A stretch of DNA of 64,000 nucleotides from Onthophagus taurus (taxonomy: Eukaryota; Arthropoda; Insecta; Coleoptera; Scarabaeidae): positions 6,138,001 through 6,202,000 of the forward strand of contig NC_091973.1 of assembly GCF_036711975.1 (NCBI RefSeq), in the 5' to 3' direction. The first letter of the stretch is position 1. The number at the start of each line of letters is the position of its first letter. This document shows, piece by piece, positions 26,319-58,800 of this stretch. The position numbers were made by a program, and so were the translations under genes. Under the pieces are notes generated by a model. It was not told the DNA's origin and did no database searches. It saw only the letters and a program-made list of their open reading frames with translations.

Positions 26319-29300
26319 ATGGAATGGTTACGCAATAACGGGTTTGTGGGCTCAGTTCGACCACTAAGGGCTATTGGGCCCCCCGATGGGGGCTGTGACC
26401 CCACAGCTTGTTACGACAGTTTTAAAGAACATTGGCAACAAGCCTGGTTAATTATCCAACGAAATCAGGTTGGTACATATCACTTTTTTTTTGAGGTTAT
26501 GTTCTGCCATAACCCTAAACGTAGTTCCATTGTTTTTTTCATTGTTTTTAAGAAATTATTACTTTTCAGCAATTACCTAGTCACGATGACGTACTTGGAG
26601 TCGTTAATCACCTTGAACAAATGGTTTCATTGCTTGTTTATGACATTAAAAATAATTTAAATCCATCAGATTGTCTTGGATACCTTTTAGATGAAAACCT
26701 CTTAGAAAAACTTTATAATTGGAGCATTGGTACAGGAAAGTAAGTCAAAAACATCATTATTATTTTGTTTTCTTTGATATTTTGACCTCTAAGGTTATTT
26801 TGAAACAATTGTGACTTATTGCATACTCGATAATCAACCATTAAACTTTATGTGGCTTACATTATTGATTAACACAATGAGTACTTAGTAATTTAATTTA
26901 TTAATCTGTTTTTTAGGAACTTTTATTATCATGAAATGAATGTTTTTGAGATGTTAACATCATAAAAGCAGTCCAAATTGAAACCACAAATACAACATCA
27001 AATTATAAACTTTAAAAAGTAATTATCTTAATAATTTTAATTTGTAGATGATGCTGTATTAATCCTTGTATGACCAAGACTATAATATAGGCAATAATTT
27101 TTGACATAGCATACAAAATCAAAGTTTGATGTACTGTCCTATTAATCATAAGAGTCATATCTGCATATTTAGAAGTTTTGAGAAAATGTGAAAAATTTGT
27201 TTATCTTTTTTCCATCCTAAGTACTATTACTCAGGAAGACTAAGTTAGCAAAATCTATTTATTTTTTGACATAGGATCAGAATATAAACTTTTTTTCAAA
27301 TTAAGAGTTTAAAATATGTTTTTGTTAGTTATGACAAATTTATAAATTTATAAGTGAACATTTTCTGTTTAGAAAAACTAGAAATACTACCTCTAAAGAA
27401 ATGTTTATTGCAACTTCAGGTTTTTCACACTTGTAGAAATGATACACATAATAATAATAACTAATAAAATACATTGTAGTTTAAACAACATTTTGTAATG
27501 GTAACTAAAAACGAAAACATGTAGCTAACAAATACGCAGCAATAGTGTATTAACCGAAATTTTTAGTAATACAGTAAGACCTCATTTAGATTGGTCATTG
27601 AGGTCATCTTATCACATAGTAAATAAGGAAATGGGAATATGCGACCAAAAATAAACAATTTGCGTTTTATATAATGTTTTATATAACGACGTGACTGCCA
27701 TAGTTTGGGAGTGTGTTGCTGCGGTGATTTCAACTCAAAAATGTATAATGAACATACACCCAAAACGCTATCGTAACCAAGCTACAAACATTTGAAATTT
27801 TAAATAAGTAGTAGTAGACCAATTAAAAAGAAACAGTTTTATTGAATTAATTGTTCAAAATGTCCACCCAGTTGCTATATACATAGTCTAGCTCTTCTTA
27901 GAATTGAAGTGGTAGCTCTGCTAACAGTCTCAGGATCAGCACAAATAATTTCTGGCATCCATAATTCTAGCTACTAGTTGTTCTTTGTTTTCAATATTTT
28001 CTTCATAAAGTAAACTTTTCAGTCTTCCCCATAAAAAGTAATCTAAGGGATTAAAGTCTGGTGACCGTGCTGGCCAAGGAACTGCAGAACCTCTTCCAAT
28101 CCACTGGTGTCTCCACACCAAAGTGTGGAGGTTTACTTACATTAAAAGGAACATCATCCAGTAATATTGGAAGATCATTTTCAATGAAACGTAAATAACG
28201 AATGGCCGTGAAACGTTCTTCAGTTATAAACGGACCAATAAGGCGGTCATCAATCGAAAGTCTATCTTGAAAATGGTATTCCCGGATTTGTCGTGGATTT
28301 TCAAATGCCCAACAATGTGAATTCCTGGTGTTATTGATGCCGTTTTGGGTGAATGAGGTTTGTTTATCACTAAACAATGTTATCCGACACGACAACTCCT
28401 TTGATTTTTCAATATCCAGCGACTAAATTCAAGTCTTGAAGCGTAGTCGGCAGGTTTTAAAGCTTGTACAGGTAAGATGTGGTACGGGTACAAATCGAAA
28501 TTGCATAAAGTTCTCCATACTCTCATCCGGCCTATGTTAAGTGTGCTGGCTATTCTTCGGACACTAGTAGAATGTTGAGCATCAATCGTATTAAGTATTG
28601 CTTCCTGTTGAACGCCTGTTTCTCTTAACCATCGATGGACATTGCTAAAAACAGTTCTACAAGGCACTTTACAAGTGGGAAATCGTCGACGATATTCATC
28701 AACTGCCGCTCGTCCGTTTCCATTACACAATCCATAAACAAAGTGAATGTTGGCGTATTCTTCATTCGAAAAAGTAAACATACCTTTAATAAGAGTATTT
28801 TAATATAACACACGAAAATAAACACGCAAAATTAATTTAATTGACGTTTGCTGTCACAATAAATAACAAATTATCATTCACAGCCAGTGAAAAAGTCCAG
28901 GTCTTTTTAATAATAACAAAATCAACAGCTTGTAGTTCGGTTACGATAGCGTTTTGGGTTCATTAGACATTTTTGACTTGAAATCACCCCAGCAACACAC
29001 TCCCAAGCTATGGCAGTCACGTCGTGGGACATCCTGTATATAAAGTTTATAATTGTAATGAAGGTCATGGTTCTTCTGATATTGTTGATTTTTTTGGCGA
29101 AGAAATCGTCATTTATCGCTTTCTTTTTCTTTCATTAAGCAAATATCGGTATCAGGCGATCGCATCCAAAACTCCTCTTCTTGCTTTTGCTGCATTTGAT
29201 CTGCTATTTCGATTTTCGCCTTTTTCAATTCGTTGTTCTGCCAGTTCCTGAAGTAGCTTCACCAGTCCTGCTATTTCGACTAGGTTGACAATTTGACCAA

Positions 29301-32300
29301 CAATAGGCTCTTCTCGTTGATAATCCTGGGATACCTCCGGCCATTTCTTCTTCCACACTTCATTCAAGCTCTTCAAAGTTAATTCTTGCCAACCCAACCC
29401 AGTGTTCGCTTTTTTTTTCTCGCAATATAAATGTGCGCTTTGACATTTTCTTTAAAAAAAGTTCTGTTTCATTCACGTTAAAAACCAATTCTGGTGGATA
29501 AATTCCTCTTTTAATTATGGTTTTTAACGTTGCAGGAAAAATTGAAGCGGCGGCATGTTGTGGAAATTGCTTATTTTTATAAAATTATCGAACCAACCTC
29601 GGCTAACTGTAAAGTTTTCACTCGTATTTTCTCTTTCATTTTTAATGTGATTAAAAATATTTATGGCCTTTTGCATGATGGTTTTTTGACTTAACATGGC
29701 ATGTTGCGTTGGATTTCATCATCAATCCAAACGTAAAAACGTTTTTCCATTTCTTCTAAAATATTGCTTCTTGATCGAGTTATCTTTGCTGCACTAGACG
29801 ATGTGGTTGTAGTTACTGACAACTTAATTTTGTCTTTGTTTTTTATAATTGTTGTTATTGTAAAAGTAGACAAATTTAGCATTTCCGACGTCAACTTGAT
29901 GTTCACCGTTTTCCAATCGCCTGAACACTTGCATTTTAATGTCGAGCGAAATGCTTTTTCGTGTCATTTTTGTTTTATTATGTTTAAATTTAAATTAACA
30001 AATATTTATTTGATTTTCTTACATAATAATCTCTATTATTACTACATAAACTAATTACGTTTTACGCAGAACGTGAAAGTGTTGAACACTCTTTAATAAC
30101 TTACAAAACTTAAATGCGCCAAACAAACATAAATTCTGGGGAATCACAGCGGAATCACTATCTATCATGCATGTTTCTAAACTGAGCCGTTAAGTTGGTC
30201 GCTGCTAAATTTGTGATGAACAAAGAAAAATGGAGACTATACAAATGAAAAAACTTTTAATTATTTAGCTTAATTATTCAGTACTTCGAAGATATCGGCC
30301 GTGCCAAATTTTCCGACGTCAAATTGGATGTTTTATTTGAGGTTTCAATTTAAACAACTGCTTTTAACTAAACCTATACAAATTGGTTTAAAATTAGAGT
30401 GAGGTTAACATAATATTTCCGTTTACAATAAAAATTTCGACTTTTGAAACTAACAAAGTTAGAAATACGATCTTAAATAACAGTTTTATTATGTTTCTTG
30501 GCAACGGTTATATCAAACTTTATGGTTTTATTGTATTCAAGGTAACGTGCATTCAATCACGTAAACGCAAATGAAATAAATTCGTTGTTTTAAGCCTATT
30601 TTTTTAATATATTTTCTTTTATTTCTATAGATATATAAACGCAGTGCGTTTGGAACAACTGAAGCTATATGAAACGCTATTAAATCATTCAAGACACGTT
30701 TTGTTGGTTAGAGATTCATTTTTACGTCCGCTCTTAAGATTGTTGGAGTCATGTCAAAATGATGTTTTACAAAACCAAAGCGAAAAACGTTTGATAGCGT
30801 TATTATACCAATTATGTGTGCAACTAATGCAAAACGTGGATCTCGTTGATTTATTTCTCAGGACGGAACCAAAACCGAAGTTTTTATTGTTTACTTTATT
30901 AATTAATTATGTTTACCGTGATGATTCGATTGGGATGCAAGCGAGAGACGCTTTGTTGTTATGTATGTCGCTTTCGAAGAAGAAACGAAATGTAGCTGAT
31001 TACATTTTGAATCAATCAAACATGGATGTACTTCTTGTTTCTGGTTTAGGTGGATTGTATTCGATTCTTCCGTTAGTTTTGACGGATGTGACGGCGCCGG
31101 ATTGGCACAGATTAACAGCGGATGATGTTAAGGATATTAAAGACTTATCCGAGTTTATAACATCTTTAGAATTTATAAATGCTGTGGCTCATGTTGCGCA
31201 TCCGGATATTGCGAAAGGATTAGAAGAATTTATGCATAGAGGATTTTTTATACCCGTTTTAGGACCGGCGTTGCTACAATCAAATTGTGCCGAACAAACA
31301 ACGGCGATTGCTTATTTAGAATTAATTTTAAGGACCGTTACCCAACCGGGATTACTTTATCCTTTATTACAATTTTTATTAAAAAGTGAATACGACGGCG
31401 AACGACTTTTAACGATATTAATCGATCGAATCGATTCAGAACCACAATTAACACTCGTTTCTTTAGCGCTTTTCGAATCCCTATTAGATCTTAATTGCGA
31501 GGACGTCATGTTGGAGTTGGTTTTTAAATATTTAAGACCGTGTTTACATGTTATGTTATCGCAAAGATGTACGAGTTTTCCGCTTGATATGCGGTGTCAA
31601 AGCTTCGAAAAATTATTAACTTTATCACCGACATGTTGCGATACATTATCTGTTATACCAAAGATCGATGGAAGGCCGGTTTATCAACAAAGTTTATATG
31701 GCAATTACCACGCATATCTTTACGATGCTCGGAACAAAATTAATTTATGCCAAATCATGTGTTCGAATTGGAACAATTCTTACGCTGGTTGTGATAGTTC
31801 CTTGGGCGAAAGTAGCGGATACGAAAGTTTGAAACAAAAAATTGAAAGCGACGCGGATGGAAGGGATAGAGAAAGGCCGATTTGGCAAATTTCCTCGAAA
31901 AAAATTGATAAAGACGATATGGAAAAATTTGTTGATGACCCTAATTGTTTAACGTCATCCGATGCGATCGGGCCGTTTCTTACCGTTATTTTAAACAAAT
32001 TAAAAGTTTTATTAAATAATACTATTTACGTTAATTTACACCTAACAGGGTTAATATCTCGACTTGCTGTTTACCCACTTTCTTTATTAAGAAGTTATTT
32101 ATTGGACCATAGTTTAATTTTACAACCGAATGTACCTTCATTATTTCAGGTAATTAATTAACCCTACGTTAGGCGCGCGAATATCCAGCAAATATACGCA
32201 TGTATGCACTTTGGGGGTGAATATCACAACAACTTTTTGAGATTGCTGTAAATACCGTCACTTTATGAATTTTTTATCAAAAAATTTAAGACGAAATTTT

Positions 32301-34372
32301 GGTATTTCAACAGGTTTTTCATATTTTGTGCAGTTTCGCAGTTTAAGAGGATGTTATTTCGAAAACGGCTGGACGGATTTCAACGCGGTTTTTACTAAAT
32401 TGTGTGCAATAACTCTGTGTGTCGAATTCCGGTAATAGTTTTTCAAAATTATTTTTTTTTGATTTTTTAGAGCGAGTGAAGTATTTGAAAAAATTCGGAA
32501 TTAGATAGGCTACGCGACGCCATTGCAGTAACGGGCGAGCGTTAGTCGGCTTCGGGGAAACACCCGAGAAATCAGAATGACACAAGGATCCTTCAAGAAA
32601 TTAATTTTATAGCGAATTTTGAAAGTTATCGATGAAAATTGCAACATCGAAAAATTTATCAAAACTTCAAATATTGTTTTCTCAAAAACTAAAAGTTATT
32701 TTTCAAAACGGGTTGGTTCATTGGAAAGGTGACACTCTTATTAACACTTTGGGAAATTTTCATAATCATATTCTAAGAACTGGATTTTATACGAATTTTT
32801 AAAACTTAATCGGCGTAAATTGCAACATCGATTATTTCAAAAATTTTTTTCTCAAGAACTAAAAGCGATTTTTCAAAACGGCTTGATACTTTAATTAAAA
32901 ATTGGTGATATTTCCACAAGGATCCTTCAAGAAATTAATTTTATAGCGAATTTTGAAAATTATCGATGAAAATTGCAACATCGAAAAATTTATCAAAACT
33001 TCAAATATTGTTTTCTCAAAAACTAAAAGTTATTTTTCAAAACGGGTTGGTTCATTGGAAAGAAGACACTTTTATTAACACTTTGGGAAATTTTCATACT
33101 CATATTCCAAAAACTGGATTTTATACGAATTTTTAAAACTTAAACGGCGAAAATTGCAAAATTCGAAAAAGTTGTCGATCATTTCAAAAATTTATTTCTC
33201 AAAAACTAAAAGCGATTTTCCAAAACGGCTTGTTGTATTAAAAAGAGGATACTTTAATTAATAATTGGTGATATTTCCACAAGGATCCTTCAAGAAATTA
33301 ATTTTATAGCGAATTTTGAAAATTATCGCTGAAAATTGCAAATTATCAAAACTTCAAATATTGGTTTCTCAAAAACTAAAAGCTATTTTTCAAAACGGGT
33401 TGGTTCATTGGAAAGAGGACACTCTTATTAACACTTTGAAAAATTTTCAAACTCATATTCCAAGAACTGGATTTTATACGAATTTTTAAAACTTAATCGG
33501 CGAAAATAGCAAAATCGATTATTTCAAAAATTTATTTCTCAAAAACTAAAAGCGATTTTTCAAAACGGCTTTTTGCATTAAAAAGAGGATACTTTAATTA
33601 ATAATCGAGAGTGATTACAGTGACAATTCTGTTAGTAATGAATGTGATATAAATAAAATTATGTTGTACTAGAATATTTGGTAACTATCCGGTATTCGGC
33701 CGGATTTCAAAAAATGTCGGATATCCGTTCCAAGACTTGTAAAAATGATCAGTGATAATAACTAAGTTTACTCCAAATTTTTTCATTAAACAGTTGCCGT
33801 GAAATCCATCACTAAACAACATCGCAAGCAATTTTATGCATATATCTGCTGGTTAATTTACAAAAAAGTATTAATAAACATTATTCAATTTTAATTTACA
33901 GATTATAGCATCATTAAAAACTGTAATAGACACATACATGTTACGTCAAGCAGATTGGCCAGCATTAATAGAAGAAGCAAGATTATTCTTGGTGGATCGT
34001 GAAACAAGATTAGTAAACGCGAGGCGTGAACGTTTTAGTTGTCCATTACCGCCCGTTCCAACGCCTCAACAACAAAACTTGTCTGATAGTGATAATCAAC
34101 CGTTTTCGCGTAATAAAGGTATAAGGAGGAGTTTTACATCGTCGATATCATCGATTTCGAGCATGTTCAATCGACGGCATAGCCACGTTGAAACAAGTAT
34201 GCCACAGCAAATGGTTCAATTAGATGGTAGTCCCGAAAGTTTGGTTTATCCGAAATTTACGGAAAGTCAACATGTTGCGATTTGCGCGGTATTGCTGGAT
34301 GAGTGGGTGAAAGAGCTTGCTGCGCTGGCTCAAGAACATGCCGTCTCACAATTAACTTCTTTATACAAGTAA
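26319..34372 (+). CDS. FHIP: FHIP: FTS and Hook-interacting protein (FAM160 family)
   Basis: Adapter that, with FTS and Hook, links cytoplasmic dynein to endosomes. Four exons with agreeing phases: 26319-26468, 26570-26739, 30631-32149 and 33902-34372, about 769 residues. The start ATG gives MEWLRNNGF; the frame is closed by TAG just upstream. Family landmarks are DPTACYDSFKEHWQQAWLII, then AVRLEQLKLYETLLNHSRHV, FLRPLLRLLESCQND, FFIPVLGPALLQ, TAIAYLELILRTV, HAYLYDARNKINLCQ and SSLGESSGYESL. The C-terminal exon carries DTYMLRQADWPALIEEAR and a Ser-rich stretch (RRSFTSSISSISSMFNRRHS). The protein is mostly helical, without signal peptide or membrane segments, and so cytosolic. Introns 2 (3.9 kb) and 3 (1.75 kb) are filled by transposons. 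The length is shorter than vertebrate FHIP1 but near FHIP2; the subfamily is not certain. Confidence 0.9.
26740..27099. other. First part of FHIP intron 2 without recognised features
   Basis: AT-rich sequence directly after the splice donor. I see no coding potential and no clear transposon end before the Tigger-related sequence that starts near 27100. Confidence 0.3.
27100..29967 (-). mobile_element. Decayed Tigger/pogo-type DNA transposon (copy B), interrupted by a mariner-like element
   Basis: On the minus strand a CENP-B-like N-terminus starts at 29967 (MTRKSISLDIKMQVFRRLEN, then GEHQVDVGN). Next are a second helix-turn-helix piece (EEMEKRFYVWIDDEIQRNMP), a DDE-domain start (PPELVFNVNETELFLKKM, around 29440-29500) and the C-terminal region at 29152-29397 (WQELTLKSLNEVWKKKWPEV, EEPIVGQIVNLVEIAGL, KARRGVLDAIA). 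The middle is deleted and frames are broken. The 3' non-coding part continues at 27100-27683, beyond an inserted mariner-like element, and matches the Wsck-intron copy in reverse. Confidence 0.72.
27684..29039 (-). mobile_element. Mariner-like transposon with HTH (DUF4817-type) transposase, broken
   Basis: Inverted ends of about 100 bases: ACGACGTGACTGCCATAG near 27687, continuing to ACGCTATCGTAACC, matched by GGTTACGATAGCGTTTTGGG to CTATGGCAGTCACGTCGT and CATCCTGTATA at the right. TA-rich sequence (TATA) adjoins both sides. The minus-strand transposase runs from 28781: MFTFSNEEYANIHFVYGLCN, YRRRFPTCKVPCRTVFSNVH, STSVRRIASTLNIGRMRVWR, then DKQTSFTQNGINNTRNSHCW in a new frame, FITEERFTAIRYLRFIENDL, and lastly WPARSPDFNPLDYFLWGRLK. 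A frameshift near 28380 and another near 28100 make it inactive. It interrupts the Tigger copy around it. Confidence 0.78.
29968..30630. other. Last part of FHIP intron 2
   Basis: AT-rich sequence between the Tigger remnant and the acceptor at 30629-30630. It may include the 5' end of the Tigger element, but I could not find an intact inverted terminus. No coding potential seen. Confidence 0.3.
32150..32581. other. Unclassified, GC-richer insert in FHIP intron 3
   Basis: This stretch has more GC than the intron around it (CGAATATCCAGC, GGCTACGCGACGCCATTGCA, GGCGAGCGTTAGTCGGCTTC). It lies between the splice donor and the start of the reversed hAT-like array. It looks like part of a transposon, but I recognise no protein and no matching terminus. 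It may be why the left end of the array element is missing. Confidence 0.3.
32582..33748 (-). mobile_element. hAT-like element with internal tandem array (copy 3, reversed, left end lost)
   Basis: This is the reverse complement of the units of about 355 bases at 294-2735, in three or so partial units, from AGGATCCTTCAAGAAATTAA to TTAATTAATAATCGAGAGTG. It is followed by a flank shared with copy 2 (an ACTGTAATCACTCTCGATTA-type stretch in reverse). The right end, CGGATATCCGTTCCAAGACT, corresponds to the element terminus. The left terminus was not found, and no target duplication could be confirmed. It sits in FHIP intron 3. Confidence 0.7.
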
Positions 34373-34933: not shown

Positions 34934-35316
34934 TTAACTCGAAGGAATTTTCGTTTCTATTCTTATCCCATGAAACGTTTTTATTTGTTCTTTTAAAGCG
35001 TTCGTTATCGCCTGGTGTTGTTTCACCCTTGAGAGCCCCTTAAAATCAATCGACTCAACATAAACGGTGTACATCGCCCCACAACCACCTGAAATATCTT
35101 CTACAACAATTTCTTTTGCGTTTGGAAACTTTGATTGCAAAATCTTCTTCATGCCATCCTCAGAACTACCTGAACTGTATTTTCTTATTTGCTGATATAA
35201 AAAAAATTTATGTTTAGGAGATTAATTTTTTTCTAATCACTTACTGATATCAAAAAAATACGTGTTTTGAACTTATTCGTATTAAAATGTTTTATAATAT
35301 TTAATTTTTCGAACAT
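34934..35316 (-). CDS. BOLA3: BolA family member 3 (mitochondrial Fe-S cluster assembly factor)
   Basis: Works with mitochondrial glutaredoxin (GLRX5) and NFU1 in delivering Fe-S clusters to lipoate synthase and respiratory complexes. Two exons: 35316-35245 (MFEKLNIIKHFNTNKFKTRI, then FLIS) and 35191-34934, joined in phase 0 across a 53-base intron; 109 residues, close to the human length of about 107. The basic N-terminal 30 residues are typical of a mitochondrial presequence. The BolA fold follows: FPNAKEIVVEDISGGCGAMY, with the conserved cysteine in GGCG, then TVYVESIDFKGLSRVKQHQA and LKEQIKTFHGIRIETKIP, with the conserved C-terminal histidine in FHGIRI. It converges on FHIP. A short gene with intact frame and good splice sites. 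Confidence 0.9.
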
Positions 35317-37221: not shown

Positions 37222-38293
37222 TTTTGAAGGCTCAAAGATTTGCAATAATTTCTTCTCTAATGCTAATTTTTAATATTTCCGGTATCTACAAACTTTTTAA
37301 TTATGTACTTTTGGGTTGGGTCAAAAAAATCAAATTATATAATTTTTTTTAATTTTTATAATATTAATGTAATATTTGTTTTTGTAATATTGTGATGACG
37401 ATAAATTTAAAGTGTTTATGTCCCATTAAAGTGTTTATTTTAGTGCTCAGTTAGCGATGACGTAGCCACCTTATGCAATTGTGCAACGTTATTTATAAAA
37501 TTTTATTTATGATAACTTGTTTACAAAATATGATTGAATTTTTTGATTACAAAATAATGACAACATAACGTTTAAGGTAACTATTTATCTCGGATTTTTT
37601 TATTTTATTTTATTAAAGTAAAACTCGTGTTTGGATTCGGATTACGTTTTGAAAATATTCCAAGATTTTATTTAAGTTCATTGCCTTCGACGTTTTACGA
37701 CGCATTTTATATATTCGTATATATAAATTTAAATGGAAATCAGAAATCATAGATATATATATCGAATGTTCTAGAAATATAATTAAACAAGTGGAGTCCT
37801 CTATTGGTAGAGATTGATATAAACATAAATAAATACGGGACGCTTTCTCCCCACCATTGAATAGAATGCGGATGACGTCACGACGACCATTCTACATTTT
37901 CGTTGATCGTAGAGCTAACGTAACCTTGAGGTTGTATTCCTACATCCCGTGATCCCGTACGAGTGTTTACATAAAGAAATTTCGTTTTATTTGGTGGTCA
38001 ATTATAAATAAAAAGGCGTTTCGTTGAATAAAAAGGTGTCGCTTAACGATATCGTTATCGCGAATTAAAAAAAAGTGTTTGGAAAGATTATTAAAGTGAA
38101 TTGTTTACATGGTACTAGTTATCTGGCGTAACGTTTAGAGGCGGCATAACACCCAAACAACATTGTGACATTATAACTTGGCAGTCAATCGACGACCGTC
38201 GAAAAAGAAGGGTACATAATATATAATACGAGATTAATACTGTGCGTTTGTTTACAAAACAGTGGAATAAAAAATAAATATTTTTTTGGTGTG
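37222..38293. promoter_or_regulatory. Presumed promoter and 5' UTR of the FRAT-like gene
   Basis: The first half is AT-rich with nothing recognised. From about 37840 the sequence has more GC and CpG (GCGGATGACGTCACGACGAC, with a CRE-like TGACGTCA at 37873). It leads into the open frame at 38294, so it is the likely promoter and leader. There is a palindromic run, TATATATATCG, near 37750. The transcription start cannot be placed exactly. Confidence 0.35.
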
Positions 38294-38770
38294 ATGTTGA
38301 TAATGCCATCAGCAAATATGAGAAATTCGAACGCCTCAACCGGTTCGGTACCAGTAAAAGCACCCGAATTTACGATTAGTGCTAAGGACGTGGAAGGTTT
38401 AGTGTTGGAGATCAAGGAAAATTTGAGAGTATCCACAACGATGAAAGCCATACCATGTAGTCATTTATCGAGAAAATCATCTAGAGCATCCCCGTATCGT
38501 GTACCGAATAGAATTATTTGCCCATGCGAAAATAGCAACAACACCATCTCATCTACCGTGTGCGAATGTGGTAGGAAATTAAAACGTAAACCTGCCCAAG
38601 ATAACCAAGAAGATCCATATGAACTACTTCAAAGGTTGTTACGTGATGGTAGTTTAGTGAACGAAGCGGTGCGACGCGTACAGCTTGGATTGTCTCCGAA
38701 ACAACGTTATTTTTATGAATCCGACGATGATACGAGCCCAATGTTACGTTTGTGTGCACAGGAGAACTGA
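38294..38770 (+). CDS. Small protein with a FRAT/GBP-like GSK3-binding helix
   Basis: A single open exon encodes 158 residues. Near the C-terminus (about residues 106-128) is EDPYELLQRLLRDGSLVNEA followed by VRR. This closely follows the GSK3-binding helix of vertebrate FRAT/GBP proteins (pattern DPxxLLQxLVxxGxLIxEAVRR), which dock on GSK3 and compete with Axin. The rest is not recognised: a Ser-rich N-terminus, an acidic/hydrophobic stretch at about 31-45 (KDVEGLVLEIKENL), a basic Ser-rich segment, and two CxC pairs (CPC at 76-78, CEC at 90-92). There is no signal peptide or membrane segment. The start ATG is at 38294, with further in-frame ATGs at 38306 and 38321; an AATAAA follows at 38791. 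The motif match is seen directly, while the function is inferred. Upstream coding exons are possible, but no splice site is needed. Confidence 0.6.
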   Translation: MLIMPSANMRNSNASTGSVPVKAPEFTISAKDVEGLVLEIKENLRVSTTMKAIPCSHLSRKSSRASPYRVPNRIICPCENSNNTISSTVCECGRKLKRKPAQDNQEDPYELLQRLLRDGSLVNEAVRRVQLGLSPKQRYFYESDDDTSPMLRLCAQEN

Positions 38771-38790: not shown

Positions 38791-38796
38791 AATAAA
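38791..38796 (+). promoter_or_regulatory. Polyadenylation signal of the FRAT-like gene
   Basis: AATAAA lies 21 bases after the stop codon. This is close, so a later signal may be used; the flanking AAT repeats make the exact one uncertain. Confidence 0.4.
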
Positions 38797-39916
38797 ACTT
38801 AATTGGGATTATTATTTATTTCTCGATGTTCCTCTAGTTAGCGTATGGAAGCACGTGTGGTTGACGTGTGTGTTGCGTTTCGTTTTATTATTATTATTAT
38901 TATTTCGAGTTTTATTTTATTTTGAAAAACATTTTTGCTCCGAAAGGAGTTACTAAGTATTATACGCTTAGGACTATGGATTCTACGCTTAGGACGTTCG
39001 TTCGATGTAAAAAAAAAATTAAGAAAAAGAGTATTGATTGACAAATCTCTTGTTTATCGGTTTTAAGACTACATTTTGTTTTGTATATAAGTTTATTTTG
39101 ATTTATTTGCGCATGCGCCAGAACAAACCCAATAGATTTGTTTTGTTTTATTTCCATTCTTTTTATTTCTTTCAAAAACACCGATAAACGCGACATTTGT
39201 CCATGATTTTCTTTAAACAGTTGTTCGTATAGTTCGACTTCGTTATCTGTGATTGCCGAATACGGTCCGCGACCGAAAAGAAAACGTCCCTCATGTATAC
39301 GAGGTGCGGACCACGGATTCGAATTCAAAAAATAAAAAAAAAAAACAAAAAAATTATTTAAAGAGAAAACCGGGTTTCGATTTTTAAATCAACCTGGCAT
39401 TAGTTAGTAAAAATAAAGTTTTTTTTTTAATTCAGACACCTCCAGGTCATTTAACTTAAGTTTCGTTGCTGATGCAATAATTGCGTTTACGTTTTTAATA
39501 CTGTTCTTTGATGCCTATGGCATTATTTTGTAATAATAACCAAAATAACGAGAATAAAAACCTATTTTGTGCGAAACTTTTTTTTTATTTAAAACCTAAA
39601 AATTTCATGATGTTTAACTATTCTTAAATGTTTAGATGTTTAATTAATTAAAGAGAAGATGATTTGATATAAAAAGTTTTAATCCTCTAATTACAACCCG
39701 TGTATTTGAATAACTTTTTTTCCACGGTGGGTGCATGGATCTTACACATCCCATTTGGAGAATTCTGCAGCCACATATTTCATTAATTGAAGTTAAAAGT
39801 GTCAAGGGTAGGGCTGATATGACGATAACATCGTATGTACTCAAAAAATCTAAGAATATTTTAGTCATGTGAAATTAATTCAAGATGAAAATAAAAAATC
39901 TGAAATTATTATATTC
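38797..39916. other. Possible 3' UTR and intergenic sequence
   Basis: Mixed AT-rich sequence. Minus-strand frames at 38960-39328 and 39644-39868 are open, but show no known motif and have runs of Phe and Leu typical of translated AT-rich sequence. The first begins with a plausible stretch (MNSNPWSAPRIHEGRFLFGR), noted separately. No transposon end was seen before 39917. Confidence 0.3.
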
Positions 39917-42900
39917 TACAGGGTGAGTTATTAGTATTCCGGCGGTCGATAGTTACTAAACCGTTTGAAAAACAAAACTATGACTCATCACATTCTATTA
40001 CGTAAAATTATTTTTACTTATACATACTTTTTTCTTAAGTTTTTTAAATGGAACACCTTGTATATTGTGTGCTAGTTGAATTGCTCATCAAGTTTCCTTT
40101 AATTAATGATGAGTATATCATATGTCTAACTTTAATAGTTTTCCTGATATTTAGAATTAAAAAGAAATGTGTAATAAAATGTGTCAAAAACGACATTTTT
40201 GCTGATTTTGCCTTGAAACTAAGTCAGACAATAGTCAAAGCCAGTAGGTAGATGATAGTATTCAAAGATATTAGATACACTATACAGGCTGTTTATAAAG
40301 CTTAGTTACTTTTGATGTTTTTCAAATGGCTTTTTCTTAAGTTTTTTAAATGGAACACTCTGTATTTTAATAATAATAATAATAATAGTTTATTGGCACA
40401 ACAATACAATATAGGTAATACATTAAAATAACTAAGTATAGAGTTTGCCAAAGGATATTTCCATCAGTAAGCCAAATTATGGCGTCCTGGTCTTCCTGGA
40501 AATCCCATACACAAAAAAAAAAGAAATATATAAAAAAAAAACAAAATAAAGTAATAACAAATTAAAATTAAATTCAACCTGAAACAATTATCGTGGCCGA
40601 TAAGTAAAAAACAAAAAAAATATAAAAAATGAACGGCCTAAACAAATAAAAATTAATATATGTCCCTAACAAACTAAAAAGAAAAAATATATATATATAT
40701 ACTAATTCGAGTTGAAGGTAGAACGACGCGCTAGTCATTAAGCAATTTAAAACGCAGAGACTCTTTAAAAATGCGAAACGATGGTTGAGCAAAAAGCAGA
40801 CTGTACTTATTCAAAATACATGCCGCGTTATAACTAAAAGACCTCTTGAACAATTGGGTACGGTGACGAGGAATGTCAATGAGGTCCTTACGCCGTACAT
40901 TAATATTATGAATGTCCGTTCTGTAAGTAATTTTGTTGGTGAGGTAAGGTGGTAGCTTACTTGACACAACTTTATAAAGAAAACAACCAAAATGTAACCG
41001 ACGACGACTTGACATACTCAGCCACTTCAACTCCCCCAGCTTATACGATACTCTCTGACGTCGGCGTATACCAAATATAAAACGAATACAAGAATTCTGA
41101 ACTACCTGAATACGTCGCGCATCATCAGTCAACAGGCAGTGGCCGTAAATTGTGTCACAGTATGTAAAGTTGAAAGATTCTTTTTAATATCGGCGTTCAA
41201 GACTTGCCTATGAGCAAACAGCATTTTCAATTTTGTGTAAGCACGCCTGATCAGTTCACTTGTGTTACGTGTAAACCTTAAGCTGTCGTCAATGTAAAGA
41301 CCAAGATCCTTGACACAGACCTTCCTCTCCAATTCAATTCCATCTATAAAGATATGGGCCATATTGCTGACAAGCGCTTTGGATTCCCTACCCCCGAATA
41401 CCATATAGACCGATTTATCCCCATTTAACAAAAGACCATGTTTCTTAGTAATATTTAAAAATTTATTTAGATCATTGTTTACATCTGCAACAGACTCTAG
41501 CACATTATTTGAGCTAAAGCTGTGGTAAAGTTGTGTGTCATCCGCATAGATATGAAATTTTGAGCAAAAGCGGTCAAAGATCAACATTTGAGACGTATAG
41601 ATAGTGAACAAAAGGGGACCCAATGTAGAGCCCCGCGGCACACCAGACCTCAATACGGCAGGATCCGACGTATATTGTACACGTATATTGTGTGCTAGTT
41701 GAATTGCTCATCAAGTTTCCTTTACTTAATGATGAGTATGTCATATGTCTAACTTTAATAGTTTTCCTGATATTTAGAATTAAAAAAAAAAGTGTAATAA
41801 AATATGTCAAAAACGACATTTTTGCTGATTTTGCCTTGAAACTACGTCAGACAATAGTCAAAGCCAGTAGGTAGATGATAGTAATCAAAGATATTAGATA
41901 CACTATACAGGCTGTTTATAAAGCTTAGTTACTTTTGATGTTTTTCAAATGGCTTTTTTTTAAGTTTTTTAAATGGAACATCTTGTATATTGTGTGCTAG
42001 TTGAATTGCTCATCAAGTTCCCTTTAATTAATGATAAGTATGTCATATGTCTAACTTTAATAGTTTTCCTGATATTTAGAATTTAAAGAAAAATGTGTAA
42101 TAAAATATGTCAAAAACGACATTTTTGCTGATTTTGCCTTGAAACTACGTCAGACAATGGTCAAAGCCAGTAGGTAGATGATAGTATTCAAAGATATTAG
42201 ATACACTATACAGGATATTTATAAAGTTTAGTTACTTTTTATGTTTTTCAAATTGCGTTTTCTTAAGTTTTTTAATTGGAACACCTGTATATTGTGTGCT
42301 AGTTGAATTGCTCATCAAGTTCCCTTTAATTAATGATAAGTATGTCATATATATAACTTTAATAGTTTTCCTGATATTTAGAATTTAAAGAAAAATGTGT
42401 AATAAAATCTCATTATTGTACTTAGAAAAGTGACAGAATGTAATATATTCTGTCCTTTTTTTTGTTCTTTCTTTTTTGTTTGTCTGTTATTTCTAAATCA
42501 GTAATATTATATTAAAATACAACTTTAAAAAAAAAATTTTAATAATTAATAATCAATACGTGATAAAAATACAAAAAATACAATTAAATGGCAGAACAAT
42601 AAATCCCTTTCTTAATTACTAAATTATTTGAAGGAAATGCAGCAACAAACTATAAACAATTACTAAACGTAGCTCAATAAGTAGGTATTAATTTAATTAA
42701 TATTTAGAAGTTGTTCAAAATGCCGCCCATTTTCTCTTCTACAAGCATTAATGCGCTGTATAAAAGATTTTGAAGTGTCTCTTAACATGTGCATCTTATT
42801 TTCTCTAAAGTTGTAAATTATATGGCAGAACAATTGCATATTTTATTACTCACATCTTTTTATGGCAGCAAAATTATTTTAAATTATAAAATATTAATCA

Positions 42901-45302: not shown

Positions 45303-47267
45303 ATGTCAATAAAAAACACTCTCAATTTGGGTGATAACACTCATTCCGTTCCTTTGGAATTATTTGCGTTGAATAGAAGAAGATTGGTCGATCGATTGAG
45401 ATCCGTGGGCGTTGAAAAATGTTTGGTTTTGCTTCAAGGAGGTGATGAGGTTCCGTTTAACGATACTGACGTCACCGTTAACGTTTTTCGACAGGTATAG
45501 TTGCCAAATAAAAGTAAATACAAAAAAAATAGCCTCAAAGTCTCAAAACTTCTTGATGGTGACGTTGTAAAAACCTGTTACTCAACGGTCTCCGTTCAGC
45601 GACTTTCTAACTCTGCGCGCAACCTTTCTTTTTAAGCTTGGCACGAAGTACAAAATACAGAACAATGACCGTGAGGTTGTATCTGGGTTACTCAAAAAAA
45701 ATAAATAAATAAAAAAAGAATCAAGTTATAAAAAATTTCTTTTCGAATTAAATTTAAATAAACATATCATAACATTCTTAATTTTAATTAGATTGAGTAT
45801 ATGCAACCCAATATACATTAATTTTAGGAATCATATTTTATGTGGGCATTTGGAGTTCTTGAGCCAGGAGTTTATGGAACCGTCGATATCTCCACGGGAA
45901 AATCAACCCTTTTTATTCCCCGCCTTCCCGAAAGTTACGCAATTTGGATGGGACCTTTATTAACACTACAAGATTTCAAAAATAAATACCAAGTCGATGA
46001 ATGCTTCTATCTCGACGAGATAGTTCAAAAAATTCAAGAAAAACAACCCGATCAACTCTTAACTTTGGTAATAACTCACACAAAAATAAAAAAAATTTAA
46101 CTTTTAATCACATTTTCTAGAAAGGAATTAATTCTGATAGCGGTTTCGAAGCGGTTGAGGCAAAATTCGATGGGATTGATAAATTTAAAGTAAACAACAC
46201 GATTCTTTTTAATGAAATCGCCGAATTGTATGTAATTTTTTATATTAAAAGACCACAAATTTAATAATATAATTAATTTTTAATTAATTTTTAGGCGTGT
46301 TTTTAAAACAAATCTTGAATTAGAAGTTCTTCGTTACGTAGCAAAAGCTTCGTCGGAAGCTCACCGCAAAGTAATGCGTTACGTAAAGCCGGGTCGAAGT
46401 GAATATCAATGTGAATCACAATTTATGAATCATTGTTACGCCGAAAGAGGTTGCAGACATGTTTCGTACACTTGTATTTGCGGTGCGGGTCAAAATGGCG
46501 CAATTTTGCATTATGGTCATGCCGCCGCCCCCAATGATGCTTTCATTAAAGACGGCGATATGTGTTTATTCGATATGGGTGGAAATTATTTTGGTTATGC
46601 GGCGGATATTACATGTTCTTATCCAGCAAATGGGAAGTTTACTGCCGATCAAAAATTAATTTATGAAGCCGTTTTAAAAGCCAATAAAGCTGTTCAAGGA
46701 GCTGCGAAACCCGGTGTTTCTTGGGTCGATATGCATTTATTATCCAGCCGCACGCTTTTGGAAGCGTTGAAAACGGGGGGAATTTTAAAAGGCGATGTCG
46801 ATGAAATGATGAAACATTCTTTGGGTTATTATTTTCAACCCCACGGTTTGGGACATCTTCTAGGTTTGGACGTTCACGACGTCGGGGGTTATTTACCCGG
46901 CCAACCCGAACGCCCGAGCCAAACGGGAATTAATAAATTAAGATTCGCCAGGATTTTGCAAAAAGGAATGTTTGTCACAATCGAGCCGGGTTGTTATTTC
47001 ATCGACCCACTTTTAGATCAAATCTTGGCGGACTCCAAATTATCGCAATTTGTCGTTCCGGAAGTTTTAAACCGCTTCCGTGGTTTTGGCGGCGTCAGAA
47101 TTGAAGACGACGTTTATATCGGCGAAAATGGAGTTGAAGATTATACTCGCGTCCCGAGAACGTTTGTTAATTAATTAAGTCTAATTATTTAAAATGATTT
47201 TTTTTATTGTTTTAGGGTTGAAGAAATCGAGAGATGGATGGCTGGGCTTGATGATGACAAATATTGA
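45303..47267 (+). CDS. PEPD: Xaa-Pro dipeptidase (prolidase)
   Basis: Cytosolic metallopeptidase that splits dipeptides ending in proline or hydroxyproline. Five coding exons with agreeing phases: 45303-45494, 45828-46067, 46121-46227, 46295-47161 and 47216-47267, 485 residues (human about 493). The N-terminal domain reads [20 protein letters not shown], then [20 protein letters not shown] and [20 protein letters not shown]. The pita-bread catalytic domain has the five metal ligands: two Asp in [19 protein letters not shown], His in [19 protein letters not shown], Glu in [10 protein letters not shown] and Glu in [13 protein letters not shown]. The catalytic-region histidine in [11 protein letters not shown] is also kept. 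The last exon encodes [16 protein letters not shown]. It is intact. A tandem array and a decayed partial copy of this gene follow it. Confidence 0.96.
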
Positions 47268-47494: not shown

Positions 47495-50400
47495 TACAGG
47501 CTGTTTATCAAAAAAGTGCATCTTCGAAAAATCATAACTTTTTACTTATTTAAAACTTTTATTCTTCCTATAAGAGATAGAGGAAAAATGATATCGGGGT
47601 CTAGGCTCGATTTTAATAAGGAACTTAATGGTGAAAACCGCATATCGATATCTCTTACGGTTTCAGAGATACAAGGTGTTTATCAAAAAATTCATAACTT
47701 TTTACTTATTGAAAACTCTTAATCTTCCTATAAGAGATAGAGTAAAAATGATATCGGTGTCTAAGGCTCGATTTTTATAAGGAACTTAATGGCGAAAACC
47801 GCATATCGATATCTCTTAAGGTTTCAGAGATACAGGGTGTTTATCAAAAAATTCATAACTTTTTACTTATTGAAAACTCTTAATCTTCCTATAAGAGATA
47901 GAGTAAAAATGATATCGGTGTCTAAGGCTCGATTTTAATAAGGAGCTTAATGGTGAAAACCGCATATCGATATCTCTTTCCGTTTCAGAGATACAGGGTA
48001 TTCATCAAAAAAAGTCATAACTTTTTACTTATTGAAAACTCTTAATCTTCCTATAAGAGATAGAGGAAAAATGATATCGATGTCTAAGGCTCGATTTTAA
48101 TAAGGAACTTAATGGCGAAAACCGCATATCGATATCTTTTACGGTTTCAGAGATACAGGGTGTTTATCAAAAAATTCATAATTTTTTACTTATTGAAAAC
48201 TCTTAATCTTCCTATAAGAGATAGAGTAAAAATGATATCGGTGTCTAAGGCTCGATTTTTATAAGGAACTTAATGGCGAAAACCACATATCGATATCTCT
48301 TACGGTTTCAGAGATACAGGGTGTTTATCAAAAAAGTGCATTTTCGAATTTTCTTATTGAAAACGCTTACTCTTCCTATAAGAGATACAGGAAAAATAAT
48401 ATCGGAGTCTAGGCTCGATTTTTATAAGGAATTTAATGGCGAAAACCGCATATCGATATCTCTTTCCGTTTCAGAGATACAGGGTGTTTATCAAAAAATT
48501 CATAACTTTTTACTTATTGAAAACTCTTAATCTTCCTATAAGAGATAGAGTAAAAATGATATCGGAGTCTAGGCTCGATTTTTATAAGGAATTTAATGGC
48601 GAAAACCGCATATCGATATCTCTTTCCGTTTCAGAGATACAGGGTATTCATCAAAAGAAGTCATAACTTTTTACTTATTGAAAACTCTTAATCTTCCTAT
48701 AAGAGATAGAGGAAAAATGATATCGATGTCTAAGGCTCGATTTTAATAAGGAACTTAATGGCGAAAACCGCATATCGATATCTCTTTCCGTTTCAGAGAT
48801 ACAGGGTATTCATCAAAAAAAGTCATAACTATTTACTTATTGAAAACTCTTAATCTTCCTATAAGAGATAGAGGAAAAATGATATCGATGTCTAAGGCTC
48901 GATTTTTATAAGGAACTTAATGGCGAAAACCGCATATCGATATCTTTTACGGTTTCAGAGATACAGGGTGTTTATCAAAAAATTCATAATTTTTTACTTA
49001 TTGAAAACTCTTAATCTTCCTATAAGAGATAGAGTAAAAATGATATCGGTGTCTAAGGCTCGATTTTAATAAGGAGCTTAATGGTGAAAACCGCATATCG
49101 ATATCTCTTTCCGTTTCAGAGATACAGGGTATTCATCAAAAAAAGTCATAACTTTTTACTTATTGAAAACTCTTAATCTTCCTATAAGAGATAGAGGAAA
49201 AATGATATCGATGTCTAAGGCTCGATTTTAATAAGGAACTTAATGGCGAAAACCGCATATCGATATCTTTTACGGTTTCAGAGATACAGGGTGTTTATCA
49301 AAAAATTCATAATTTTTTACTTATTGAAAACTCTTAATCTTCCTATAAGAGATAGAGTAAAAATGATATCGGTGTCTAAGGCTCGATTTTTATAAGGAAC
49401 TTAATGGCGAAAACCACATATCGATATCTCTTACGGTTTCAGAGATACAGGGTGTTTATCAAAAAAGTGCATTTTCGAATTTTCTTATTGAAAACGCTTA
49501 CTCTTCCTATAAGAGATACAGGAAAAATAATATCGGAGTCTAGGCTCGATTTTTATAAGGAATTTAATGGCGAAAACCGCATATCGATATCTCTTTCCGT
49601 TTCAGAGATACAGGGTGTTTATCAAAAAATTCATAACTTTTTACTTATTGAAAACTCTTAATCTTCCTATAAGAGATAGAGTAAAAATGATATCGGAGTC
49701 TAGGCTCGATTTTTATAAGGAATTTAATGGCGAAAACCGCATATCGATATCTCTTTCCGTTTCAGAGATACAGGGTATTCATCAAAAGAAGTCATAACTT
49801 TTTACTTATTGAAAACTCTTAATCTTCCTATAAGAGATAGAGGAAAAATGATATCGATGTCTAAGGCTCGATTTTAATAAGGAACTTAATGGCGAAAACC
49901 GCATATCGATATCTCTTTCCGTTTCAGAGATACAGGGTATTCATCAAAAAAAGTCATAACTATTTACTTATTGAAAACTCTTAATCTTCCTATAAGAGAT
50001 AGAGGAAAAATGATATCGATGTCTAAGGCTCGATTTTTATAAGGAACTTAATGGCGAAAACCGCATATCGATATCTTTTACGGTTTCAGAGATACAGGGT
50101 GTTTATCAAAAAATTCATAATTTTTTACTTATTGAAAACTCTTAATCTTCCTATAAGAGATAGAGTAAAAATGATATCGGTGTCTAAGGCTCGATTTTTA
50201 TAAGGAACTTAATGGCGGAAACCACATATCGATATCTCTTACGGTTTCAGAGATACAGGGTGTTTATCAACAAATTCATAACTTTTTACTTATTGAAAAC
50301 TCTTAATCTTCCTATAAGAGATAGAGTAAAAATGATATCGGTGTCTAAGGCTCGATTTTAATAAGGAACTTAATGGCTAAAACCGCATATCGATATCTCT

Positions 50401-52545
50401 TTCCGTTTCAGAGATACAGGGTATTCATAAAAAAAAGTCATAACTATTTACTTATTGAAAACTCTTAATCTTCCTATAAGAGATAGAGGAAAAATGATAT
50501 CGATGTCTAAGGCTCGATTTTAATAAGAAACTTAATGGCGAAAACCGCATATCGATATCTTTTACGGTTTCAGAGATACAGGGTGTTTATCAAAAAATTC
50601 ATAATTTTTTACTTATTGAAAACTCTTAATCTTCCTATAAGAGATAGAGTAAAAATGATATCGGTGTCTAAGGCTCGATTTTTATAAGGAACTTAATGGC
50701 GAAAACCACATATCGATATCTCTTACGGTTTCAGAGATACAGGGTGTTTATCAAAAAAGTGCATTTTCGAATTTTCTTATTGAAAACGCTTACTCTTCCT
50801 ATAAGAGATACAGGAAAAATAATATCGGAGTCTAGGCTCGATTTTTATAAGGAATTTAATGGCGAAAACCGCATATCGATATCTCTTTCCGTTTCAGAGA
50901 TACAGGGTATTCATCAAAAGAAGTCATAACTTTTTACTTATTGAAAACTCTTAATCTTCCTATAAGAGATAGAGGAAAAATGATATCGATGTCTAAGGCT
51001 CGATTTTAATAAGGAACTTAATGGCGAAAACCGCATATCGATATCTTTTACGGTTTCAGAGATACAGGGTGTTTATCAAAAAATTCATAACTTTTTACTT
51101 ATTGAAAACTCTTAATCTTCCTATAAGAGATAGAGTAAAAATGATATCGGTGTCTGAGGCTCGATTTTTATAAGGAACTTAATGGCGAAAACCGCATATC
51201 GATATCTCTTACGGTTTCAGAGATACAGGCTGTTTATCAAAAAATTCATAACTTTTTACTTATTGAAAACTCTTAATCTTCCTATAAGAGATAGAGTAAA
51301 AATAATATCGGTGTCTAAGGCTCGATTTTTATAAGGAACTTAATGGCGAAAACCGCATATCGATATCTTTTACGGTTTCAGAGATACAGGGTGTTTATCA
51401 AAAAATTCATAACTTTTTACTTATTGAAAACTCTTAATCTTCCTATAAGAGATAGAGTAAAAATAATATCGGTGTCTAAGGCTCGATTTTTATAAGGAAC
51501 TTAATGGCGAAAACCGCATATCGATATCTTTTACGGTTTCAGAGATACAGGGTGTTTATCAAAAAATTCATAACTTTTTACTTATTGAAAACTCTTAATC
51601 TTCCTATAAGAGATAGAGTAAAAATGATATCGGTGTCTAAGGCTCGATTTTAATAAGGAGCTTAATGGTGAAAACCGCATATCGATATCTCTTACGGTTT
51701 CAGAGATACAAGGTGTTTATCACAAAAGTGCATTTTCGAATTTTCTTATTGAAAACGCTTACTCTTCCTATAAGAGATACAGGACAAATGATATCGGAGA
51801 GTAGGCTCGATTTTTATAAGGAACTTAATGGCGAAAACCGCATATCGATATCTTTTACGGTTTCAGAGATACAGGGTGTTTATCAAAAAATTCATAACTT
51901 TTTACTTATTGAAAACTCTTAATCTTCCTATAAGAGATAGAGTAAAAATAATATCGGTGTCTAAGGCTCGATTTTTATAAGGAACTTAATGGCGAAAACC
52001 GCATATCGATATCTCTTTCCGTTTCAGAGATACAGGGAATTCATCAAAAAAAGTCATAACTTTTTACTTATTGAAAACTCTTAATCTTCCTATAAGAGAT
52101 AGAGTAAAAATGATATCGGTGTCTAAGGCTCGATTTTAATAAGGAACTTAATGGTGAAAATCGCATATCGATATCTCTTACGGTTTCAGAGATACAGGTG
52201 TTTATCAAAAAATTCATAACTTTTTACTTATTGAAAACTCTTAATCTTCCTATAAGAGATAGAGTAAAAATGATATCGGTGTCTAAGGCTCGATTTTAAT
52301 AAGGAACTTAATGGCGAAAACCGCATATCGATATCTTTTACGGTTTCTGAGATACAGAGTGTTTATCAAAAAAATCATAACTTTTTACTTATTGAAAACT
52401 CTTAATGTTCCTATAAGAGATAGAGGAGAAATGATATAGGTGTCTAAGGCTCTATTTTAATAAAGAACTTAATGGCGAAAACCGTATATCGATATCTCTT
52501 ACCGTTTTAGAGATACAGGGTATTCATCAAAGAAAGTCTTAATGG
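47495..52545 (+). repeat. Tandem array of about 31 units of roughly 162 bases
   Basis: Each unit holds CAGAGATACAGGGTGTTTAT, then TTTTTACTTATTGAAAACTC, CCTATAAGAGATAGAG, a GATATCGGTGTCTAAGGCTC phrase, AATGGCGAAAACC and CATATCGATATCTCTTACGG. A higher-order repeat of about 1,131 bases (seven units) is visible: 48001-49131 recurs from 49132 with very few changes. A further related block lies about 1,292 bases on (eight units). The repeated short open frames follow from the unit and are not genes. The array lies exactly between PEPD and its decayed copy. Confidence 0.93.
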
Positions 52546-55894: not shown

Positions 55895-58800
55895 TCAGTT
55901 GACCAATTCAACATTTACGAATTGTTTCAGTCTTTCCAAATAGGCTGTGTATAATTCTACATCATTATGTCCGGCTCCCTATATACACATACAATATATT
56001 TATATATTAATTTCAAATAAAAAGGATTGATGTTACAATTTAAGGCTGAGGAATTAAGCCCTGCTAAGTGTGAAGAGAATTTTTTCATATTTTGAAATCG
56101 AAAATTATTTTTAGTGTAGGTAAAGCAACCTTTTTGTTCATGATACGGAAAAATTTTATTAAGAAAAGTTGTTCAAAATGCGAAATTATGGTCCTATACA
56201 AAATTTCAGAAGGATTTATCTACTTTGGTTGAACCATCACATTTTAGTTTAAATAACATAAATATTGTATAATTTTATTTTATTTATAAAAAATCTAACG
56301 TAAACATAAATGTCGTTTATTCAACCTAAATTCTTTAAAGCTGTTCTGAATCAATGCTTTTTTTTCACTCTGATCTAATCTAAAATATGGTGGTTTAATC
56401 AATGTAGGTGGATTTTTCTGAAATTTTGCATAGTGGCTTAATTTCTCATTCTGAACAACTTTTCTTAATAAAATTTTGTCGTATCATGAACAAAAAGCTT
56501 ACTTTACCTGAACTAAAAATAGTTTTCGCTTCACTATCAAGACCGAGTTGATTTTGAAAATATGAAAATATACTTAAAATTCTCTCCACGCCAAGCTGAG
56601 GTCAATTCCCCATCCTTAAAATAAAATTCAAAAATTTTTAGACACACTGTATTTATACCGGGTTGAGGCATTTTAATAAAATTGTAACAGTAACAGTATA
56701 TAGGGTGCGTCTGAAGATATCGTCATGAGCCGAAACACGTCGATTTTTATTTTTTGTTAATCCAAATAATTTAGCATAAAAAATTGTTTATCACTTTTAA
56801 TTTTTTTGGAAAATGAGTCAACTTTGTTTTTTTAGTTGAACACCTTAGATATAACATTTTCTGATAGCGCTAAAAAAATACCAATCCTATGATACCTCGC
56901 AATCAAATATTGGTTAATAAGTTTTTATGATGACAAATAAATATCAAACAGTAATAGGTTATAAAAGTTTGGAACCAGTAAAAATAGATAGCAAAGAAAT
57001 ATAAAACGGACAAGGAAGTTGGTTGAAATATGGACAAAAGAAATTGAAAAGATGAGCCTAGAATTGAACGTAAATAAATGTAAAATCGTGATAATAAATA
57101 AAAAGGAAATAAGAAATAACCCGAAAGAAATATTTATTAAGTCTCTTTACTAGAACGTCGTACTTGTTAAAATAATTGTTGATGATTATTAATTATTTTT
57201 GACTGTTATTAAGCAAGAGTATCAGAGGCAAATAAGAAAAAACACGTAATTAATATTTTTAAACGTACTATAAGGATACTTAATATCGCCAAAATCAACA
57301 CGGTAGTTTTTAAAATATTCCAAAAAACTAGGGGTAGTTGGAAAGCTGAAAATGAATATCAGTTCACATTTACATTTACCACATTTCGACAGCTATTTTC
57401 GTCTTCAGGCTATAAGCGAATATACAGGGTGTGTCAAATGTCTGCAATATAGCCAACAACTTCGCCATTTGTGGTTTTAAAGAAAAATGTTTCAAATACA
57501 AGTTTCTTTATTAATCATGGCGCATTTTTTGACGATATTTGCTTCCTTGTATTATTTTTTTGTTTCGTTGCTATGGCAACCAACATTGTTATTTTAAATG
57601 GGATGCATATGTTTTTTTCGCATACATTTGCGATGAACATATCAAATCATATGGTTTTATAAGAAAGAAACCGAGAAATAACGCGTTTTCTGGAGATATT
57701 ATCAGCAATTTGCAATCAAAGGAGTTAAAAAAATGATAGTTTCAACAATTATGAATAACTAATAATGTATGGGTACACACATTTAATGCAGTTTCATCAT
57801 TGGTAGCTGTCTTTGGCCGTTCACTTTTGGAAGATTTTTAACACTTCCGGTATTCAAAAATTTTTTTAATATTTTGGATACTGTAGTGTACAAACTTCAT
57901 TAATATTTGGATTTTTTGTTCGCTTAATTGCACCATATTTGTTTAAACTGTTAATTTTTTGACATTTAAAGCTATCAACGGCGTTATTTCGGCGCCTGCT
58001 TTGATGATTTGATAAGTTCATCGCGTAGAGGGATTTATACTCTATCAAAATATGCATCCCATTTAAAATAAAATTCGCCGTAAAATGCGTCACAATTAAT
58101 AAAGAATTTTTTATTTGAAACATTTTTCTTTAAAACCACAAATGGCGAAGTTATTGGCTATATTCCAGACATATATATATTTCGCCCCGATTTCTAACCC
58201 TTATAACTCGCCCCAGGGGCTTTATTAGCACGTATAAAAAAATCGCTGTACCAAATTGCAACAAAATCGGCGAGGGACAGTCCCAACACTTTCCTACAAA
58301 GCAGCGCGGGCCGCCATTTTCTACAATTTTTATTAATTAATATCATAAAAACTAATTAACCAATTTTCGATTAGGAGGTATCATTGGATTCGTATTTTTT
58401 AGCTATATCAGAAAATGTAAAAAAATAAAGTTGATCCATTTTCGGCCGTTTTGAAATTAAAGCGCCCTCTATGTGAGTCACTGTATACAGATGTCCCATA
58501 TCTTCCTTATCACAGCATTATATGATTGAAGTATTCTGAAGCGATTTTTCTAATAAAAATATTTCGAACTGTTTAAAGTCGTCCAATAGGGATTCCATAG
58601 GTGTCTGGGTAGAAAAATGGCTTTAGAATAATGTATTCTTCAAGTGTATAATGCTCTGCTCTGGAAGATATGGGACAACCTATATGGAAAGAATGATATT
58701 AATAATGGGAAATATTGTTGGAATTACTTACTTCAACCCAAAGTGGTTCAACAGCTTTTGGACACCTTTCAAAGATAGTGAGGCCATGGGAAAAGTCAAT

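Follow-up and report, generated by a model that had tools for sequence, protein, structure and literature searches.

Background

According to a passage of PMC3529405, FRAT1 and FRAT2 are competitors of Axin in binding GSK3, on which their sites overlap with that of Axin. Part of PMC6974163 (2020) describes FRAT/GBP as a dorsal determinant in frogs and as dispensable for Wnt signalling in the mouse. The same text states that 'Similar to FRAT, TMEM98 is highly conserved among vertebrate species, but not present in invertebrates', a sentence that appears readable as calling FRAT absent from invertebrates. The locus described here is a single-exon coding frame in a 64,000-nucleotide stretch of contig NC_091973.1 of the insect Onthophagus taurus; this stretch is referred to as the window, and positions are given in its coordinates. 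The product of the frame is best read as a divergent FRAT/GBP orthologue that would bind Shaggy, the insect GSK3, in the groove used by Axin, compete with Axin and raise Wnt/Armadillo signalling, a reading to which we assign a probability of roughly three in four. To our knowledge, no FRAT/GBP member has been described from Drosophila.

GSK3-interaction region

The sequence-only reading had pointed to a 158-residue frame containing EDPYELLQRLLRDGSLVNEA followed by VRR, and to CxC pairs in the same protein. Both are present, the former at residues 106-128 (38609-38677) and the latter as C76/C78 and C90/C92. Residues 106-130 (EDPYELLQRLLRDGSLVNEAVRRVQ) face residues 197-221 of human FRAT1 with 13 of 25 positions identical and 20 of 25 positive. 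The sole Pfam family matched by the protein is GSK-3_bind (PF05350; E=1.7e-5, 24.8 bits), over residues 93-130 and positions 183-220 of the 238 in the profile, so that the profile comparison with FRAT/GBP proposed by that reading yields a match beyond chance. A search against all PDB chains returns six matches up to E=10. The top four are FRATtide (1gng_X, E=0.0038), FRAT1 (5oy4_X, E=0.0091) and two further FRAT1 chains (E=0.0099 and 0.015); phage tail sheath proteins (E ~0.3) make up the remaining two. The C-terminal half scores 72 against FRAT1, a value reached by none of 5000 shuffles. For the GSK3-binding region, a chance motif is ruled out by the Pfam and PDB matches together with the shuffles.

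GSK3 and Axin in the same genome

The genome searched comprises 290.8 Mb in 33 contigs of up to 44 Mb (GC 32%, CpG observed/expected 1.34), values that might suit a beetle, and is that of an insect, since the insect odorant-receptor family 7tm_6 gives 134 matches at E <= 0.001, many of them partial genes. The 158-residue protein matches a single place in it. When all six frames of the genome are searched with PF05350, the locus ranks first (21.6 bits), and the only other match reaches 12.6 bits. The same search of 14 control genomes gives no match, a result of little weight. The earlier suggestion that a FRAT-type protein occurs in an insect is supported: the locus is the sole notable PF05350-like one, its PDB match is FRAT1 and not Axin, and the surrounding genome contains insect odorant receptors.

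For human GSK3-beta, the top match in the genome lies on contig C11, in an exon 92% identical to it and adjoined by more exons on the same strand (C11:32527735-32534549). Over human residues 260-304 the insect Shaggy/GSK3 is identical at 42 of 45 positions, with changes at 298, 302 and 303 only and the stretch 260-297 unchanged. The residues which we take, from the GSK3-FRATtide and GSK3-Axin structures, to form the FRAT/Axin groove (263, 266, 267, 288, 291 and 293) are all unchanged. Statements on V267 and F291 in a passage of PMC12876850 concern a different binder.

Contig C5 carries Axin, including an RGS exon (34.8 bits), a beta-catenin-binding motif (49.5-49.7 bits) and, in an exon between them, a GSK3-binding helix. 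Against human Axin-1 this helix gives a weak match (E=0.31), and true GSK3-binding helices can therefore look weaker than that of the frame. With FRAT1 the Axin helix scores 16, and 4583 of 5000 shuffles score at least as high. Since the frame scores 72 with FRAT1 and the Axin helix 16, the genome holds both kinds of docking helix, and the frame sides with FRAT. The insect Axin helix is recognisable, in contrast to part of PMC8775565, where Drosophila is said to lack the GSK3-binding motif of Axin.

N-terminal half

Two further blocks resemble FRAT1. Residues 29-46 are identical to FRAT1 36-53 at 7 of 18 positions and positive at 13 of 18, and the motif RKSSRASPYRV follows at residues 60-70. 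Inside the first block, LVLEIKENLRV has class 1c spacing, as has LVAQIGETLQL of FRAT1 (43-53), which we take to be the nuclear export signal of FRAT. When residues 1-98 are compared with FRAT1 1-188, the top two ungapped segments (scores 31 and 27) keep the order of FRAT1. Their in-order sum is 58, compared with 45 when either the insect or the FRAT1 sequence is reversed. None of 52 pieces of other exons in the window reaches either score, these pieces overlapping and not being independent. Tested against PF05350, the FRAT1 fragment 35-64 (30 residues) obtains 52.7 bits, the GSK3-binding fragment (29 residues) 61.2 bits and a middle fragment (32 residues) 21.7 bits; FRAT1 35-64 is among the better-kept parts of the profile. 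The pairing of residues 29-46 with FRAT1 also turns up in the PDB search, at -0.5 bits. We regard the two blocks as giving moderate support to a common ancestor with FRAT. The sequence-only reading had left the choice between an older family and an independent origin of the motif; the balance leans to the older family because the two extra blocks follow the order of FRAT1, and this lean rests on weak matches. Its remark that the rest of the protein is unlike FRAT does not hold for these two short blocks and stands for the CxC stretch, which has no clear counterpart in FRAT1 and could, speculatively, be a metal site.

Several results count against orthology with FRAT. The PF05350 score of the frame falls 0.2 bits short of the curated cut-off of 25 bits, and in the genome-wide search the locus obtains E=0.0204, likewise under the cut-off. 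Shuffled sequences attain the in-order pair of N-terminal segments in 17 of 1000 cases, a figure that is optimistic because the statistic was devised after the segments had been seen, and the best score of the N-terminal half against FRAT1 is reached by 182 of 5000. Searched alone, this half matches nothing in Pfam or the PDB up to E=10, nor has its first block alone a Pfam match, and a global MAFFT alignment registers the GSK3-binding region only, missing both N-terminal blocks. The composition differs as well, with one acidic residue in the first 30 (14 in FRAT1) and 7.0% proline (13.6% in FRAT1). Xenopus GBP is also short, which makes it unsure whether an acidic start and a proline-rich middle define the family.

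Alternatively, a GSK3-binding helix pair of this shape might have appeared in an insect protein unrelated to FRAT, just as Axin came by its own with another sequence. Independent origins are possible for short helical docking motifs, and the likeness of the N-terminal half is weak in shuffles and profile searches alike. Such convergence is nevertheless unlikely: the independent solution of Axin differs, being indistinguishable from shuffles when set against FRAT1, whereas the frame keeps 13 of the 25 residues and has extra blocks in the order of FRAT1.

Proposed mechanism

Given a retained helix and an unchanged groove region in the partner, the plainest interpretation of a FRAT/GBP orthologue is that Shaggy would be bound and kept from Axin, and Armadillo protected. 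The C-terminal helix-turn-helix (residues 106-130) would dock in the same hydrophobic groove of Shaggy as Axin. Held away from Axin, Shaggy would phosphorylate less Armadillo/beta-catenin, and Wnt signalling would increase, while the catalytic site of Shaggy would stay unblocked. The block LVLEIKENLRV probably acts as a nuclear export signal, by which Shaggy would leave the nucleus; an effect of FRAT on GSK3 export is reported in a passage of PMC551520. We infer the expression, binding, competition and export of the protein alike.

A protein of the FRAT family could also have its main task beyond competition with Axin, for example as a kinesin adaptor or in a role independent of GSK3. The CxC stretch, which is not FRAT-like, speaks for such a task; no part of the protein is better kept than the GSK3-binding region, and the facing GSK3 surface is unchanged at 260-297, which makes this alternative rather improbable.

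Coding evidence

Translation may begin at 38294 or at the in-frame ATG 38303, between which the sequence alone does not decide. The GC content of the frame is 0.42, compared with 0.31 upstream and 0.30 downstream. In-frame codon log-odds amount to 0.243 per codon. This exceeds the 0.116 of the best non-coding piece and lies within the span of seven other exons of the window (0.198-0.410), which were also used for training. The alternative frames on the same strand reach 0.189 and 0.104, a modest contrast. The open length is 197 codons. In 60 windows generated by a first-order Markov model the longest frame averages 137 codons with a maximum of 204; open length by itself is weak proof for this reason.

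This maximum, attained in one of the 60 windows, is what speaks for a pseudogene or an unexpressed frame. The absence of internal stops, a codon use like that of neighbouring exons and a significant match over a long-diverged residue pattern speak against it, and this explanation is very improbable. A fragment of Axin or of another known GSK3 binder is extremely improbable, and for Axin it is ruled out: although Axin binds the same groove and its insect helix scores 33 with the frame, 174 of 5000 shuffles score as high (none for FRAT1), and Axin itself lies on contig C5 with its RGS and beta-catenin-binding exons.

Significance

The comparison suggests that this regulator is more ancient than the description of its family as restricted to vertebrates implies. 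It is fairly probable that FRAT/GBP goes back to the bilaterian ancestor as a Wnt modulator, that some insects retain it, that the usual invertebrate models have lost it or no longer show it in recognisable form, and that it has been overlooked. In insects it would be a natural Axin competitor available for forming the embryonic axis, the part played by GBP in Xenopus. Such members would be overlooked because their scores fall just below the curated profile cut-off. If the assignment is true, the family dates from before the protostome/deuterostome split, insect Wnt models miss a direct competitor of Axin, the gene is available as a single copy in an organism accessible to RNA interference, and a margin of 0.2 bits under the Pfam cut-off constitutes a practical blind spot. 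Among the best-ranked full-text results of a literature search, no title names an insect or arthropod FRAT/GBP, some queries having been poorly aimed and subscription papers lying outside the search; with this partial coverage and aim, the negative is not proof of novelty. A search by family identifiers and related terms lists a single paper, on cattle. PMC4977476 and PMC7535936 do not mention FRAT or GBP, and PMC7292647 has one pertinent place, a reference. Automatic database annotation may already label such proteins FRAT-like.

Surrounding window

Features of the frame, its surroundings and the Axin exon are listed in Table 1. The M24 metallopeptidase gene is presumably a Xaa-Pro dipeptidase, and the exons at 12520-20946 may form one receptor kinase. 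The CRE-like palindrome TGACGTCA occurs three times in the window against a mean expectation of 0.49, and at least three copies are found in 1 of 100 shuffles. The minus-strand frame downstream has no Pfam match at E <= 0.001. Searches of the 64-kb window for RNA families give no match at gathering score.

The window contains several tandem repeats. A 5-kb array (47527-52531) between the M24 peptidase and ABHD17-like genes consists of about 31 copies of a 161-base unit, 92% alike. Arrays with a period of 353 bases are located at 384-2714, 17931-19248 and 32885-33605, one of them between two RAI16-like exons. Stretches such as TTAATTAAAGTATCCTC are common to their units, in either orientation, and the arrays therefore look like one satellite family. 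A nested repeat block (13166-15587) with periods of 57, 305 and 472 bases is built around GGCGGCCGA and GTCGGCCGAGATTATTTCTT.

Table 1. Features of the frame, its surroundings in the window and the Axin exon (window coordinates unless a contig is named).
Feature	Position	Strand	Remarks
Single-exon coding frame	38294..38770	+	158 residues and stop; 155 residues if ATG 38303 starts
N-terminal block SAKDVEGLVLEIKENLRV	38378..38431	+	residues 29-46, facing FRAT1 36-53
Leucine-rich export-signal-like pattern LVLEIKENLRV	38399..38431	+	residues 36-46; putative function
RKSSRASPYRV	38471..38503	+	residues 60-70, facing FRAT1 120-130 RVRGRAAPYCV, 6/11 identical
CPC...CEC stretch	38519..38569	+	C76, C78, C90, C92; no clear FRAT1 counterpart
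Basic tract RKLKRK	38573..38590	+	precedes GSK3-binding region; FRAT1 basic there too
GSK3-interaction region	38609..38683	+	residues 106-130, facing FRAT1 197-221
AATAAA, possible polyadenylation signal	38791..38796	+	21 bases past stop; consensus match only
CRE-like palindromes (three)	37873-37880, 45467-45474, 63539-63546		first one ~420 bases upstream of frame
Frame of 122 residues, begins MNSNPWSAPRIHEGRFLFGRGPYSAITDNEVELYEQLF	38960-39328	-	looks coding by eye
RAI16-like gene	30644-34372	+	with KELAA motif
BolA-like gene	34934-35152	-	
M24 metallopeptidase	46374-47174	+	
Alpha/beta hydrolase	58699-59589	-	
Exons with kinase, fn3 and weak WSC matches	12520-20946	-	
Retroelement (reverse transcriptase) and helix-turn-helix transposase remnants	41129-41653, 7973-8374, 28380-28781	-	
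Axin exon with GSK3-binding helix	C5:7042277-7042690 (L015:6278-6691)		between RGS and beta-catenin-binding exons

Comparison with known GSK3 binders

The helix of Axin (human Axin-1, PDB 8vmg_C) occupies the same GSK3 groove according to a passage of PMC3529405. It has no notable sequence relation to the frame, and the insect Axin carries a helix of its own, NPDEFAAILIEKLKCVKKEQ. GSKIP, a GSK3-binding protein said in part of PMC8775565 to compete at the Axin site, belongs to a different domain family, and no GSKIP model is among the Pfam matches of the frame up to E=10. Viral contigs, prokaryote genomes and phages contain no relatives at the limits used, as expected of an animal gene.

FRAT1 is the longer protein, with 279 residues compared with 158 in the insect protein, which lacks the acidic start, has less proline, possesses CPC...CEC in its middle and is unlike FRAT1 past about residue 130. 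As far as is known, vertebrate FRAT genes are intronless, and the single exon of the insect frame matches them in this respect. With FRAT1, FRAT2 and Xenopus GBP (PF05350) the protein shares the helix pair DP..LLQ.L...G.L..EAVRR and, in weaker matches, the export-signal-like spacing and the block RA[AS]PY.V, all three blocks in the same order.
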